This document shows, piece after piece, positions 1,712 through 63,861 of a stretch of 64,000 bases of DNA (position 1 is its first letter; each line of letters starts with the position of its first letter). Position numbers and translations under genes: made by a program. Under the pieces are notes generated by a model that saw nothing but the letters and a program-made list of their open reading frames with translations, was not told the DNA's origin and made no database searches. This DNA comes from an uncultured Prevotella sp. Lineage in GTDB: Bacteria > Bacteroidota > Bacteroidia > Bacteroidales > Bacteroidaceae. The stretch spans positions 23,163 to 87,162 of the forward strand of contig CALUEX010000006.1 in NCBI GenBank assembly GCA_944319815.1. The letters run 5' to 3'.

Positions 1712-1778
1712 ATGAAAATATCTTTAAGCCACAATTTTTAACGTAAATATTTTTCGATGCGGACTATCCTAAAGTATT

Positions 1779-1880
1779 AAAAGGACACAAACGACTGCAT
1801 AAAAGGATGCCAACGGGAACGCAAAAAGGCACCTTTCAGCGCGTGAAAGGTGCCCTTTTAGGAACGCATTGATTATCAAG
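1779..1880. repeat. 22-bp-period array (4 units) plus TTGATTATCAA-type tail
   Basis: Four consecutive 22-bp units begin at 1779, 1801, 1823 and 1845. Each has AAAAGG or AAAGG at the same phase, and most have a mirrored CCTTT or CCCTTTT. The array is followed by CATTGATTATCAAG at 1867-1880. It lies just downstream of tex (minus strand), so the last two units, which can pair as a hairpin, could also act as the tex terminator. Confidence 0.7.
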
Positions 1881-1908
1881 CCTTTATCAAGGCCTGATTA
1901 ACAAGCCG

Positions 1909-6387: not shown

Positions 6388-6396
6388 AGATAAAAA

Positions 6397-6490
6397 GGAG
6401 GGAAGGAGTAAAGGAGAGAAGGAGTAAGTAGATTACTTGTAACGATAAAGCATTTCTACTTACTCCTTCTCTCCTTTACTCCTTCCCTCC
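6397..6490. terminator. perfect 36-bp inverted repeat of GGAGTAA words
   Basis: The left arm (6397-6432) and right arm (6455-6490) are exact reverse complements, with a 22-nt loop. The arms are purine-only apart from T and repeat GGAGTAA and GGAGGGAA. The hairpin sits between the convergent permease and ilvC genes, where a bidirectional terminator is expected, but it is far longer than a normal terminator and lacks a clean U-tract. Confidence 0.7.
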
Positions 6491-6495
6491 TTACA

Positions 6496-13984: not shown

Positions 13985-14215
13985 GAAAAAAGAAACTACT
14001 GAACAAATTAAATCAAGAAAAAAAAGGCATTACCATGTTAAATCAGCTAAAAAACATGACAAACAGAACAATTAAGGGCTTTTATTCAACACTATTTAAT
14101 ACCGGGAATGAGTACACAGCCTTATTTAAATTCCCTGTATAAAAGATGTTTAGAACATAACGGATATTGACGCCTCCTGATAGGCATGATGAAAACCGGC
14201 CGCCGTCAACGTAAA

Positions 14216-14303
14216 GCAAAAAAGGACAAACAGCCTTGCAATATGGCATCTATCTAACGGCAAAAGGGCATCTTTTGCAAGCCAAAAGACGGCATATTGG
14301 GAA
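14216..14303. repeat. 22-bp-period array (4 units)
   Basis: Units begin at 14216, 14238, 14260 and 14282. The third (GCAAAAGGGCATCTTTTGCA) is itself a near-perfect palindrome; the others keep the phase but differ in sequence. The array lies in the long gene-free region between the OmpA-family gene and cobU. Confidence 0.6.
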
Positions 14304-14453
14304 ACAGCTGTTAGCAAGGCACTTACAAGGCTGCGTCCTAAGCCATGTATAAAACACCGAAACCGTGAGGGCGTAAGCCCGGAAACTGCACACGAAAAAG
14401 TGATGGCACCCAGCCATGGCTCGTGCTCCTTATTACAATACAAACCGCATAGA

Positions 14454-14697
14454 GGCAATGAAAATAAATGCTCGTTTCTCTCACTTTTATTTTGCATTGC
14501 GCTCAACTTGCATTATCTTTCAATAAAATAAGCTGCGTCTCGGCAATGAAAATAAATGCTCGTTTCTCTCGCTTTTATTTTGCATTGCGCTCAACTTGCA
14601 TTATCTTTCAATAAAATAAGCTGCGTCTCGGCAATGAAAATAAATGCTCGTTTCTCTCGCTTTTATTTTGCATTGCGCTCAACTTGCATTATCTTTG
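14454..14697 (+). repeat. promoter-bearing 88-bp tandem repeat (2 full units plus 68 bp)
   Basis: The word GGCAATGAAAATAAATGCTC recurs at 14454, 14542 and 14630, an exact 88-bp period. Each unit ends in AACTTGCATTATCTTT. In the first two units the next base is C (TATCTTTC); only in the third, which faces cobU, is the promoter box complete (TATCTTTG). The same repeat occurs inverted at 24954-25097. Confidence 0.9.
14690..14697 (+). promoter_or_regulatory. promoter box of the cob operon
   Basis: TATCTTTG in the last 88-bp unit. It predicts a start near 14704, so the in-frame ATG at 14684 cannot be used and translation must begin at 14726. The leader of about 22 nt is too short for a cobalamin riboswitch. 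Confidence 0.75.
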
Positions 14698-18831: not shown

Positions 18832-18935
18832 CATGAAACGGCATCTTTCAGGCTTCAAAACGGCATCTTTTACACGACAAAAAGCCACGTTTTAACGACT
18901 AAAAGGACGCATTTTACAACGCACTGATTATCAAT
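18832..18935. repeat. 22-bp-period array (4 units) plus TGATTATCAA tail
   Basis: Units begin at 18832, 18854, 18876 and 18898, each with AAAC/AAAAGG-type and CTTT/CGTTTT-type halves at fixed phase, followed by CGCACTGATTATCAAT. The array lies upstream of the endonuclease gene and downstream of the rhodanese gene. Confidence 0.7.
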
Positions 18936-18968
18936 ACATTACAACAACGACTAACATCCGCGACCAAA

Positions 18969-20913: not shown

Positions 20914-21079
20914 GAGTAAGGAGAAAAGGAGTAAGTAGAAAGGAGGGAAGGAGTAAGTAGATGTGCTTTGTGTACTATCCATATTGGCAGAACGGCTTTA
21001 TTGCATATCTACTTACTCCTTCCCTCCTTTCTACTTACTCCTTCCCTCCTTTCTACTTACTCCTTTTCTCCTTACTCCT
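20914..21079. repeat. long inverted repeat of GGAGTAAGTAGA words
   Basis: The left arm (20914-20961) is purine-rich (GGAGTAAGTAGAAAGGAGGGA) and the right arm (from about 21004) is its reverse complement. The right arm holds one more copy of a 22-bp unit, TCTACTTACTCCTTCCCTCCTT, than the left, so it looks as if it grows by tandem duplication. It separates the co-directional WecB-like and SDR genes. Confidence 0.75.
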
Positions 21080-22177
21080 TTACTCCCTTTTCAAGTCCAT
21101 CAATATCTGAAGGATGCGTTCCGCCGTCCGTCCGTCCCAACGGTCTGGCAGCGAACACTTCTTCCACTGCCCCTTGACAATGTCGGCAACGGCATCTCCC
21201 AACTTGCCGGCATCCTCGCCCACAAGCACGTTTGAACCGCACTTTACTGTCTCAATGTGCTCGGTATAACTGTTAATGGTAACACACGGAACTCCGTTAA
21301 ACGTCGCTTCCTCGGCCACATTGCCAGAGTCAGTAACTATACCCTTTGCATTTGCCGTAAGATAACCGAACTCCAAATAAGAAAGAGGCGTTATTATAGA
21401 GAAGTTGTCGTATCCTTTCACCATTGGAGCCACAACCTCCGCCGCAGACGGGCGCAACGGAGCTATAATCCTGACATCACCGGCGGCACTACACATAGCC
21501 GCAAACATCCTCTCAAGGTTTGCCGTGTCGGCAAGTAAGACCTTGCGGTTTAACGTAAAGACGATATACTCCTGTTCCTTAACCTGCAACGAGTCAAGCA
21601 CGGACGGACGCACAAGACGTGGACGGTTGAACCGCAAAGAGTCCATAAGGATGTTGCCGACCATATATACATGGGACAGCTCCGCTCCCTCACGGCTCAC
21701 TATGCTGTTGCTCCCCATGCCTGCAGTGAAAAGCAAGTCAGAAAGCCCGTCAATCACAAGACGATTTATTTCCTTTGGCATCTTGATGTCAAACGAGCGC
21801 GTCCCAGCCACGAGATGTGCCAGCGTTAGCCCGTGTTTCTTCGCCACAATGGCAACAGCCATCGTCGAGGCAAGGTCATCCACGACGATGACCACGTCTG
21901 TCAAGTTTGCGTCAAGGTATTTTTCAAACTCCGACATGACGCGCCCCGTTAGTTCGTTAAGGTTTACGCAGTCAACACCAAGCCACACATCTGGAGCTTG
22001 GATGCCTAAATCGTCAAACAAGGTAGGCTCGAGCGTAGGGTCGTTCTCCGCCCCTGTATAAACCAAGCGATAATTAACGTCCTTGCCGTCAGCCTTCGCC
22101 CTGACAACGGCACGCACCAAAGGAGCTACCTTTATGAAGTTAGGCCGGGCTCCGGCCACAATACATATATTCAACAT
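21080..22177 (-). CDS. WecB-like UDP-GlcNAc 2-epimerase homologue with altered active site
   Basis: The 365-residue protein aligns by eye over the full length of non-hydrolysing UDP-N-acetylglucosamine 2-epimerases, which supply UDP-ManNAc for envelope glycans. It starts with A-G-A-R-P-N-F-I-K-V-A-P, then has M-P-K-E-I-N-R near 130 and D-S-G-N-V-A-E-E near 278. Several catalytic motifs are changed. The usual H-V-E-A-G-L-R is H-L-V-A-G-T-R, so the Glu is lost. The usual T-x-H-R-x-E-N is T-L-N-R-K-V-L, so the His is lost. The usual V-H/V-G-D-x-x-S-T is V-D-D-L-A-S-T. It may have a different activity or be regulatory. The DNA shows no frameshift. Confidence 0.8.
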   Translation of the reverse strand: MLNICIVAGARPNFIKVAPLVRAVVRAKADGKDVNYRLVYTGAENDPTLEPTLFDDLGIQAPDVWLGVDCVNLNELTGRVMSEFEKYLDANLTDVVIVVDDLASTMAVAIVAKKHGLTLAHLVAGTRSFDIKMPKEINRLVIDGLSDLLFTAGMGSNSIVSREGAELSHVYMVGNILMDSLRFNRPRLVRPSVLDSLQVKEQEYIVFTLNRKVLLADTANLERMFAAMCSAAGDVRIIAPLRPSAAEVVAPMVKGYDNFSIITPLSYLEFGYLTANAKGIVTDSGNVAEEATFNGVPCVTINSYTEHIETVKCGSNVLVGEDAGKLGDAVADIVKGQWKKCSLPDRWDGRTAERILQILMDLKRE

Positions 22178-25280: not shown

Positions 25281-25324
25281 GGTAAAAGGGCATCTTTCAC
25301 GTCGCGAAAGATGCCCTTTTGCAT
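25281..25324. repeat. 22-bp-period array (2 clear units)
   Basis: Two units (25281 and 25303) form together a strong hairpin, AAAAGGGCATCTTTC...GAAAGATGCCCTTTT. The array lies just downstream of the BspA-LRR gene (minus strand) and may serve as its terminator. Confidence 0.6.
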
Positions 25325-25378
25325 TGTAATTGGTAATATACTGAATGTCAATACATTACCCATCCACTCTCCTTTTAT

Positions 25379-27127: not shown

Positions 27128-27257
27128 AATCTGTTGAATTTTAGCCCTGCCCTACCCTTCGGTTATAAGGGCGTCTGGCGTGGCTTGTTAATTGTTTTTG
27201 GTTTGTTTTCGCTATTGCTTTTAGTTAATTGTTTCCCTGTTGTTTATGGTTTCGTTT

Positions 27258-27356
27258 CCCGTTTATGCCCTTTGGGCTTGTAAAAGGTGCCTTTTTGCAT
27301 CGTGAAAGATGCCCTTTCGCAGGCTAAGAGATGCCCTTTTGCGGAGGCGTTGATTG
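27258..27356. repeat. 22-bp-period array (3 clear, 1 degenerate unit) plus TTGATTGTCAA tail
   Basis: Units begin at 27258 (degenerate), 27280, 27302 and 27324, and are followed by GAGGCGTTGATTGTCAA. The array lies in the 500-bp spacer between the two surface lipoprotein genes. Confidence 0.65.
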
Positions 27357-27396
27357 TCAACCAGTTACGCGGGGCGTTGCCTTTATTGAGAGAATA

Positions 27397-27558
27397 GGGC
27401 ATATAAGCCCGATAAGGCCAATACTGATGACTGCTGAAAGCATACCGCTTGTTGGCTGAATGGGGCATATAAGCCCGATAAGGCCAATGCTGATGACTGC
27501 TGAAAGCATACTGCTTGTTGGCTGAATGGGGCATATAAGCCCGATAAGGCCAATGCTC
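27397..27558. repeat. 66-bp tandem repeat (2 full units plus 30 bp)
   Basis: GGGCATATAAGCCCGATAAG recurs at 27397, 27463 and 27529, an exact 66-bp period with only a few substitutions between units. GGGCATATAAGCCC is a short palindrome. CCGATAAGGCCAAT also occurs once at about 36949, upstream of the ThrE-type gene. Confidence 0.85.
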
Positions 27559-30314: not shown

Positions 30315-30424
30315 GGCAAAAAACGTTAACTACAAACTTTTTTACAATAAATCAACACACTGTCCGGCAAAAAATGCCAAGGCCGGAGCATGGAACGCGC
30401 AACAGGCTGACTGTCAACCTCTTG

Positions 30425-30512
30425 GCAAAAGGGCATCTTTTAGGCTGCAAAAGGATACCTTTCACGCCACGAAACGTGCCTTTTTACGGCGTAAAAGGTA
30501 TCCTTTTGCAAA
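30425..30512. repeat. 22-bp-period array (4 units), clearest copy
   Basis: Units begin at 30425, 30447, 30469 and 30491, exactly 22 bp apart: GCAAAAGGGCATCTTTTAGG, GCAAAAGGATACCTTTCACG, ACGAAACGTGCCTTTTTACG and GTAAAAGGTATCCTTTTGCA, each plus two bases. An inverted tail-like motif (GACTGTCAACC) lies just before it. The array lies between the porin gene end and the surface-cluster promoter. Confidence 0.8.
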
Positions 30513-36350: not shown

Positions 36351-36570
36351 CCGCACCCCGGCGGCTGGAAAAATGAATTTTCATGTATTATGGACACTTT
36401 ACTGAAAGGCGTAAATTAATTAATATTCATGTTGCAGACATGAAACAACATTGAAACAACCTAAACGGTAATGAAACATCGCGGCAAGCCCAACTGGGCA
36501 CAACGGGCATACGCCCCGGCACACGGAAAGGCCGCACGACCTGCCCTACCGGACAGTCACGCGCAACTAA

Positions 36571-36687
36571 CTGACAATCAACAACATAACAAACGCCTCG
36601 TAAAAGATGCCCTTTTGCAAGCCGAAAGGCCACCTTTTACAGCTCAATATGTGCCCTTTCGCCACGCCGTTTGGCATATATCAATAA
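36571..36687. repeat. 22-bp-period array (4 units) preceded by inverted tail motif
   Basis: CTGACAATCAAC at 36571 is the reverse complement of GTTGATTGTCAG. Units follow at 36600, 36622, 36644 and 36666 with constant 22-bp phase. The tail lies before the array here, so this copy is inverted relative to those at 1779 and 18832. Confidence 0.7.
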
Positions 36688-39755: not shown

Positions 39756-39850
39756 ATCCTATATTGATAAACCATCGCTTGCAAGGCATTTACGCACGGG
39801 CTTGAAGCCTGGTCGTAAACGACTGGAAGCCAACACATTACAAAGCATTA

Positions 39851-39938
39851 TGCAAAAGGTGTCATTTTAGCTTGCAAAATAGCACCTTTCACCGTGCAAG
39901 AGGACACATCTTGCACGATGAAAGGCGGCCTTACGCAT
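39851..39938. repeat. 22-bp-period array (4 units)
   Basis: Units begin at 39851, 39873, 39895 and 39917 (TGCAAAAGGTGTCATTTTAG and variants). An ATAATCAAC half of the tail motif follows at about 39937. The array lies between the divergent-end spacer of GH28 and the lipocalin-like gene. Confidence 0.7.
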
Positions 39939-46558: not shown

Positions 46559-46656
46559 CGCCGAAGAGCGGCCCTCACATTCCCCTGCCCCACACTTGTA
46601 TTGTGCCACCGGCATCAAGGCCTGACGTTCATGCACGGCACACATCAAGACATTTT

Positions 46657-46744
46657 ACAAAAGGCCGTCTTTCGTATTCCGAAAGACGGCCTTTTACATT
46701 ACGATACATGGCCTTTTACCATGCAAAACACGGCATTTAGGATA
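46657..46744. repeat. 22-bp-period array (4 units)
   Basis: Units begin at 46657, 46679, 46701 and 46723. The first two together make a strong hairpin (AAAAGGCCGTCTTTC...GAAAGACGGCCTTTT) about 100 bp after thiL, which could also terminate it. Confidence 0.7.
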
Positions 46745-47188: not shown

Positions 47189-47261
47189 GGTGCCATAGCT
47201 CAGTTGGTAGAGCAAAGGACTGAAAATCCTTGTGTCCCCGGTTCGATTCCTGGTGGTACCA
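47189..47261 (+). tRNA. tRNA-Phe (GAA)
   Basis: The 73-nt cloverleaf has the acceptor stem GGTGCCA/TGGTACC, a D-arm with TAGCTCAGTTGGTAGAGC, an anticodon stem AAGGA/TCCTT with loop CTGAAAA (anticodon GAA), a T-arm with GGTTCGATTCC, and discriminator A. The CCA end is not encoded. A terminator follows at 47286-47318. An integrase gene lies 245 bp downstream, so the 3' end is a candidate attachment site. Confidence 0.96.
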
Positions 47262-63638: not shown

Positions 63639-63773
63639 AATAGTATTTTTTTAAGATGAGTTTCATTTTTTATCCGTCTGCGGATTTATTTGTGTCTCTT
63701 TGTCGTAAACACTTACGATGTGTCGTTTTTCCATTGCTTTTACTTATGGTTTTCGCTTGCTTCCGGCTAATTT

Positions 63774-63861
63774 GCAAGAAGTAACCTTTTACAGTGTGAA
63801 AGGCCACCTTTTAGAAGGCGAAAGGCCATCTATTGCAGGCTGAAAGGACACTGTTTGAAAC
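63774..63861. repeat. 22-bp-period array (4 units)
   Basis: Units begin at 63774, 63796, 63818 and 63840, the last three with GTGAAAGG, GCGAAAGG and CTGAAAGG starts at fixed phase. The array lies upstream of susC. No TAnnTTTG box precedes susC, which suggests activation by a dedicated regulator. Confidence 0.65.

Follow-up and report, generated by a model that had tools for sequence, protein, structure and literature searches.

The element at 30424..30510 of the window (the whole 64,000-nucleotide stretch of uncultured Prevotella DNA analyzed here) raises the question of what purpose is served by short, drifted units held at one exact spacing. Its four dyads are each 21 bp long and follow one another every 22 bp (71.4 bits; units 19.3, 18.1, 14.9 and 19.1), and an IHF-like site (TTGACAGTCAGCCTGTTGC) lies 6 bp off the array on the minus strand (30399..30417). 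Ten spacers of the window, this one included, had been noted as sharing one design, and all ten hold arrays of the kind described below. The class is undescribed in the open-access literature searched.

Array geometry in the window and its genome

A matrix model was trained on the window, refined on 400 kb from the same genome (G000; contig stretches C1:1-220000 and C48:1-180000) and applied to the combined 464 kb with an array cut-off of 20 bits. Genes were called with our own script. The unit is a 21-bp dyad (TGYRAWAKRYSRYMTWTYRCA; written out, TGYRAWAKRY-S-RYMTWTYRCA) followed by one unconstrained base, for which no preference was seen over 182 spacer positions (A 43, C 40–49, G and T alike). 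Because the unit is a dyad plus one base, a four-unit array spans 87 bp; the earlier note had drawn four 22-bp units over 88 bp, of which the four-unit phase holds and the register is corrected. Sixty-five arrays exceeded 20 bits, as against 0.4 per dinucleotide-shuffled sample (shuffled maximum 25.0 bits; 3 of the 65 real arrays score 20–28), and extrapolation from these 65 in 464 kb gives ~390 arrays per genome. Adjoining units were 22 bp apart throughout in 65/65 arrays, 49 of which carried four units, 13 three, two five and one two. A/T-rich and G/C-rich stretches alternate at ~11 bp along the arrays, and 161 of 193 units have one of six centre triplets (TGC/GCA, TGG/CCA, CGG/CCG). Counts from own-genome model searches, in which 150 candidates were scored, stand for at least that many arrays.

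A model-free detector run over the same 464 kb returned 66 arrays at period 22; the remaining periods between 16 and 33 gave 0–6 each, and one shuffle of G000 intergenic sequence gave none. Period 22 far exceeds expectation, the point on which the suggestion of a real phase was to stand or fall. Tandem Repeats Finder reported period 22 at only 2 of the 10 window arrays because the units have drifted. Among the 63 arrays with a called gene on either side, 2 overlapped a called gene; the arrays lie mostly between genes. The arrays are dispersed and extragenic and, at the extrapolated copy number, exceed the 100 copies per genome by which REP/BIME elements are defined.

Along the window, the array at 1776..1862 (43.6 bits) has four units, the first two weak, and an IHF-like site beside it (TTGATTATCAAGCCTTTAT; 1869..1887, plus strand). 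The array at 14215..14301, four units with the first weak, has a weak IHF-like site at 14308..14326 (plus), and a second genome of the genus, G004, has an array in the same spacer. Four units at 18832..18918 (60.0 bits) are accompanied by CTGATTATCAATACATTAC at 18924..18942 (plus), an exact match to the WATCARNNNNTTR motif defined below. The array at 25281..25323 has two units that are near-perfect reverse complements of one another; its IHF-like site (25341..25359, plus) lies 17 bp off, in the long offset class, and was recognized by eye: the script passed over it, since a weak third ‘unit’ (8.6 bits) called by the model overlaps it. Beside the array at 27257..27343 (64.3 bits; four units, the first weak at 5.5 bits) the site is TTGATTGTCAACCAGTTAC (27350..27368, plus). 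Three good units and a degenerate fourth (2.5 bits) make up the array at 36599..36685 (63.8 bits), with an IHF-like site 17 bp off on the minus strand (36563..36581); the four-unit array at 39851..39937 (72.7 bits) has a weak site, also 17 bp off (39815..39833, minus). An IHF-like site was looked for and not found beside the four-unit arrays at 46656..46742 and 63773..63859.

Other repeats were observed in the window. Two near-perfect tandem repeats close to arrays (14454-14696 and 27392-27557) have periods of 88 and 66 bp, multiples of 22. Intergenic positions 20914-21086 hold purine-rich period-22 repeats in inverted orientation (AAGGAG.../...CTCCTT), of other sequence and the same period, and 8- and 16-bp versions occur at 6394-6492. 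A tRNA gene (47189-47261) was the sole Rfam match.

Occurrence and divergence across genomes

The model-free detector was applied to eight genomes of the genus, of which G004, G010, G060, G073 and G016 were chosen for matching the model and G061 and G040 as model non-matchers and single contigs. Period-22 arrays were found in all (G000 66, G004 38, G073 19, G010 25, G060 7, G016 24, G061 12, G040 5); each further period between 16 and 33 gave 0–6 arrays, and shuffles gave none. Intergenic autocorrelation peaked at lag 22 in 8/8 same-genus genomes. The dyad-symmetry cut was passed by 121 of 196 de novo arrays (1/5 in G040), and a model built from 31 arrays matched 28 of 60 same-genus genomes under strict filters. 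Five other Bacteroidales families yielded 0, 1, 0, 0 and 0 period-22 arrays in 40–80 kb each (the single match in G026), and E. coli yielded none in 100 kb. Named tex loci (81 kb intergenic) showed no excess at period 22, which gave 6 matches where periods 21 and 16 gave 9 and 4. Among relatives of the Tex protein, those that bear names come mostly from rumen metagenome bins of Prevotella or Prevotellaceae, so that the DNA of the window probably stems from a species of this kind. In the oral species Prevotella pallens, two period-22 arrays with CAGATATCTG dyads were observed ~5.8 kb apart (L096, 508 and 6283).

The sequence of the unit varies by species, being TGCRAAACGNSNCGTTTYGCA in G073, TGYAATNTGASTCANATTRCA in G016 and, among others, TTGCACAACAGSTGTTGTGCAA in G061; 27 arrays were called in G016 with its own matrix and 2 with that of G000. 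The step is kept, at 22 bp in 148/153 cases in G004 and 64/64 in G073. Four units, which the earlier note took as the norm, are the rule in G000 and also in G004 (40/50 arrays) and G073 (16/20); the norm does not extend to G010, where 9 of 23 arrays have five units, or to G016, with 3–10 units per array and mostly 5–6. Unit number is a species habit, not a law. Some arrays of G061 and G040 are near-identical direct repeats, not drifted dyads. Long 22-bp-phased arrays were observed in G061 as two inverted copies (C1:562500-563300 and 587400-587900, in L237 and L238), with a unit sequence that changes gradually along the array.

Five G000 arrays had both neighbouring genes conserved in G004. Three were shared and two were missing in G004; the arrays do not keep fixed places. 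A sixth G000 array lies behind tex, and G004 also has an array behind tex. The two array-bearing G000 spacers measure 331 and 438 bp and their array-free G004 counterparts 117 and 127 bp; the spacers of the two genomes have diverged too far for insertion borders or target-site duplications to be placed. Best phase-fixed identities of four orthologous G000/G004 pairs were 0.64, 0.49, 0.60 and 0.46, no higher than for random G000/G004 pairs (median 0.58, 95th percentile 0.68). Within genomes, the highest identity between arrays was 0.80 in G000 (1176 pairs), 0.79 in G004 (780) and 0.82 in G073 (120), with medians of 0.53, 0.53 and 0.67. Neither within genomes nor between orthologs do these low identities point to recent copying, and sequence is lost sooner than position and phase. 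The chance-level identity of orthologs, together with the exact 22-bp steps, bears out the proposal that selection acts on geometry.

Chromosomal spacing and the flanking IHF-like site

Spacing was measured in five samples from four species, with matrices trained on each species’ own arrays outside G000. The coefficient of variation (CV) of the intervals was 0.50 on C1 and 0.39 on C48 (both G000), 0.37 in G004 (50 arrays, 440 kb), 0.38 in G073 (20 arrays, 151 kb) and 0.32 in G016 (27 arrays, 220 kb). Random placement in called spacers of ≥100 bp gave mean CVs of 0.82–0.88, and 0/4000 draws per sample were as even. With spacers of ≥200 or ≥300 bp, P was ≤0.005 wherever there were enough spacers (G004, with 49 spacers for 50 arrays, was left out of the 300-bp cut). 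The arrays are therefore spaced along the chromosome more evenly than gene layout gives. In the window alone the evenness was not significant (n = 10, CV 0.67, P 0.31), and de novo matches were uneven as counted (CV 1.42 in G061, 0.60 in G040, 0.74 in G060 and 1.25 in G010), being few or consisting of composite arrays counted piecewise. Arrays were on average about 6 kb apart on C1 and about 11 kb apart on C48, the two ends of the range, and intervals <4 kb were rare. Composites of about four units, AT-rich AAAAATAAATTAAAAA repeats and more units were observed in G010 (C3:583000-800000, in L153-L163), often about 10–12 kb or multiples apart by eye.

Arrays occupied spacers of every type (≥100 bp, six samples pooled: divergent 44/98, convergent 25/72, tandem 86/355). 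In tandem spacers motif B faced the start of the next gene 19 times and the end of the previous gene 17 times. This mixture of spacer types and orientations argues against a promoter or terminator function. The median distance of an array was 247 bp to a start and 88 bp to a stop. A polarity along the replichore was ruled out, as the orientation of motif B was mixed.

The motif found beside many arrays, YTGATTATCAR-N4-TTRC, aligns in register with the IHF consensus WATCARNNNNTTR. By consensus only, that sequence was enriched 14–45x beside arrays in G000, G004 and G073, lying ≤50 bp from an array in 17 of 66 occurrences in G000 (0.9 expected), 9 of 57 in G004 (0.6 expected) and 9 of 15 in G073 (0.2 expected). 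Three sites each were found within this distance in G010 (3/71, 0.4 expected) and G016 (3/38, 0.5 expected), an excess of 6–8x, and none in G060 (0/17, 0.1 expected), which has 3 arrays. With scrambled patterns (nine controls, three genomes), 0 or 1 match lay near arrays. A wider form of the motif was present on one side of 42/65 arrays in G000, 23/50 in G004 and 13/20 in G073, missing from 23/65, 27/50 and 7/20, and on both sides of 0/135 arrays in the three genomes together; no conserved outer end or terminal repeat was found on the motif-free side. Offsets from the array end cluster at 5–6 and 16–17 bp, two classes (~6 and ~17 bp) that differ by 11 bp, one helical turn. Several G016 arrays (L164-L168, L248-L253) end, by eye, in a flank like TTTTCAGCGTGATTT, which is possibly the counterpart of the IHF-like site in that species.

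Possible roles of the arrays

We propose, with moderate confidence, that the arrays are chromosome-wide, evenly spaced nucleoprotein sites that serve as nucleoid-organizing nodes. Each dyad would bind one dimer of a sequence-specific protein, and neighbouring dimers would line up along one face of the DNA. A bend of the IHF type would bring the adjoining DNA back over them, so that a compact node, wrapped or looped, results. Nodes every 6–10 kb would organize the nucleoid as boundaries of loops or topological domains and would not control particular genes. The specificity of the protein would differ between species, with the 22-bp rule kept. A protein-binding array, among the possibilities first listed for the element, is the best fit of the readings offered; no binding protein was found. 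Against the proposal stand also the arrays that lack the IHF-like motif, its smaller excess in G010 and G016 and its absence in G060, a unit number that varies between species, the non-significant evenness of the window, the uneven de novo matches, the de novo arrays below the dyad-symmetry cut, the direct-repeat arrays of G061 and G040, and the arrays missing from conserved spacers. ParB was ruled out as the array reader because it is present in single copy, with one PF02195 match per genome in 8/8 genomes and no second ParB-like reader; small changes were seen in its HTH region. A partial precedent is offered by iteron arrays of plasmid origins (R6K type), which combine a ~22-bp phase with an adjoining IHF site and pair by ‘handcuffing’, a possible analogy. 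In iterons the repeats are direct, lack dyad symmetry and sit at a single origin, unlike the dispersed dyads described here.

Even spacing could also be a product of mobility, a reading that we consider unlikely but worth weighing. The arrays would then be REP- or MITE-like selfish repeats, or one-ended transposon remnants, whose transposase binds the 22-bp sites and avoids occupied neighbourhoods. Tn7 has 22-bp TnsB sites and target immunity, and such immunity would by itself produce even spacing. The observed evenness with its few intervals <4 kb agrees with mobility, as do the presence/absence differences between G000 and G004, with the longer array-bearing spacers. Young copies are absent, however, the highest array identity being 0.79–0.82; the motif-free side has no conserved terminal repeat; the units are symmetric dyads; and the REP-associated transposase domain Y1_Tnp, present in 6 of 8 carriers, was not found in G073 (~80% complete) or G040. 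The REP-like mobile repeat of the earlier note finds no support as written, both near-identical copies and covariation being absent. BIME, REP and RIB elements of enterobacteria are likewise dispersed extragenic palindromic repeats, probably present in hundreds per genome, and IHF binds the inter-REP segment of BIME-1 (PMC2817692). An IHF site within the element, as in BIME-1 and RIB, is recognized in the arrays by its consensus. The arrays differ from these in showing no hairpin covariation and no shared primary sequence, in their strict 22-bp phase, species-typical unit number and even chromosomal spacing, and in that Y1_Tnp was not found in two of eight carriers. The BrickBuilt MITE of Porphyromonas gingivalis is also a Bacteroidales element of short tandem units in intergenic spacers; it has 23-nt units, a leader and tail, inverted-repeat ends and 19 copies in ATCC 33277 (PMC4596501), whereas the arrays have a 22-bp step, dyad units, no conserved outer ends and far more copies.

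It is doubtful that the arrays are operators of an abundant regulator acting on tandem dyads two turns apart (Lrp/AsnC or ArgR type), with evenness as a by-product. The geometry fits, since in the Lrp family dyads whose centres lie two or three helical turns from one another are bound through the dimers of an oligomer that wraps the DNA (PMC2995911). At least two orthologous AsnC-family paralogs were found in 11/11 genomes. Yet in both paralogs the recognition-helix region shows almost no variation across species (22/24 loci parsed) though the array dyad differs between them, and Lrp/AsnC was ruled out as a species-specific reader on this ground. The arrays show no gene polarity and lie at the distances from starts and stops given above, and a few hundred evenly spaced operators along a chromosome would be unusual.

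A further reading, which we hold only tentatively and think rather doubtful, is that the arrays are docking sites tying the chromosome to the cell envelope. An anchored IHF would grip the array-side site, and the array-binding protein would mark the place. HU/IHF-family genes number 4–12 per genome, and 8/8 carriers have an adjacent pair comprising a ~100-codon IHF-like frame and a 433–529-codon frame with an IHF-like domain (L311:728-2349 in G000; L313 in G016, L314 in G061 and L315 in G004), behind a gene that we take to be RimO-like. In PDB and NCBIfam the N-terminus of the long protein comes nearest to IHF alpha, below NCBIfam cut-offs. In 4 of 5 loci examined, an acidic linker and one hydrophobic, membrane-like segment precede the C-terminus, which we read as LysM-like; a LysM domain was not called by Pfam, and a weak NCBIfam match was to the EbpS model (E 9.6e-5, G061). 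Of 60 same-genus genomes, 53 had a match to the long protein, in some cases through short HU-like frames only; among 13 genomes from other Bacteroidales families there were two matches (an N-terminal match in a 318-codon frame and a 94-codon HU). A partnership between the arrays and an IHF-like subunit that seems to carry a membrane segment is speculative, and the envelope connection is weakened because LysM went undetected by Pfam and because G075 has many array matches and no match to the long protein. If it were true, the arrays would form a periodic, envelope-anchored chromosome scaffold with a code diverging between species.

That the arrays are strong DNA-gyrase or topoisomerase sites, relieving supercoiling much as E. 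coli BIME-2 does, is improbable. Their ~11-bp alternation of A/T and G/C resembles the helically phased gyrase motif, in which a GC periodicity of roughly 10.75 bp is interrupted in the middle, at the cut, by ~36 bp of non-periodic sequence (PMC6379681), and BIMEs pair gyrase sites with IHF sites (PMC2817692). The arrays run unbroken, without that central unphased cleavage region, and their strong species-specific base recognition at conserved dyad positions would not be expected of gyrase.

Shuffling symmetric positions within units did not lower their rate of Watson-Crick pairing (z −3.7 to +0.5; 193 units >10 bits). Half-sites without covariation make the units look like dyad protein sites along one helix face, as had been supposed, not RNA hairpins. 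Perfectly reverse-complementary 7-bp centres occurred in 17 of 123 adjoining unit pairs, a share that is 1.4% among random pairs. Some neighbours are therefore mutual inverted copies, a feature that counts against a pure operator reading; long hairpins between adjoining units are possible in a minority of arrays. Such centres, and the location of palindromic units close to where genes end, would suit RNA hairpins or intrinsic terminators. These can nevertheless be set aside, the hairpin reading being refuted for single units by absent covariation, arrays being indifferent to gene direction, and Rfam matching a tRNA alone in the window; nor are the arrays independent terminators, which was the other way in which the proposal might have failed.

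No bacterial chromosome is known to us in which a short element combines near-regular intervals of several kb with strict internal geometry. If this is real, the old question of whether nucleoid loops or domains have boundaries that are fixed and defined by sequence becomes directly testable. Several hundred sites at which geometry is kept and the recognition sequence differs within one genus would, in addition, be a test bed for protein-DNA co-evolution.
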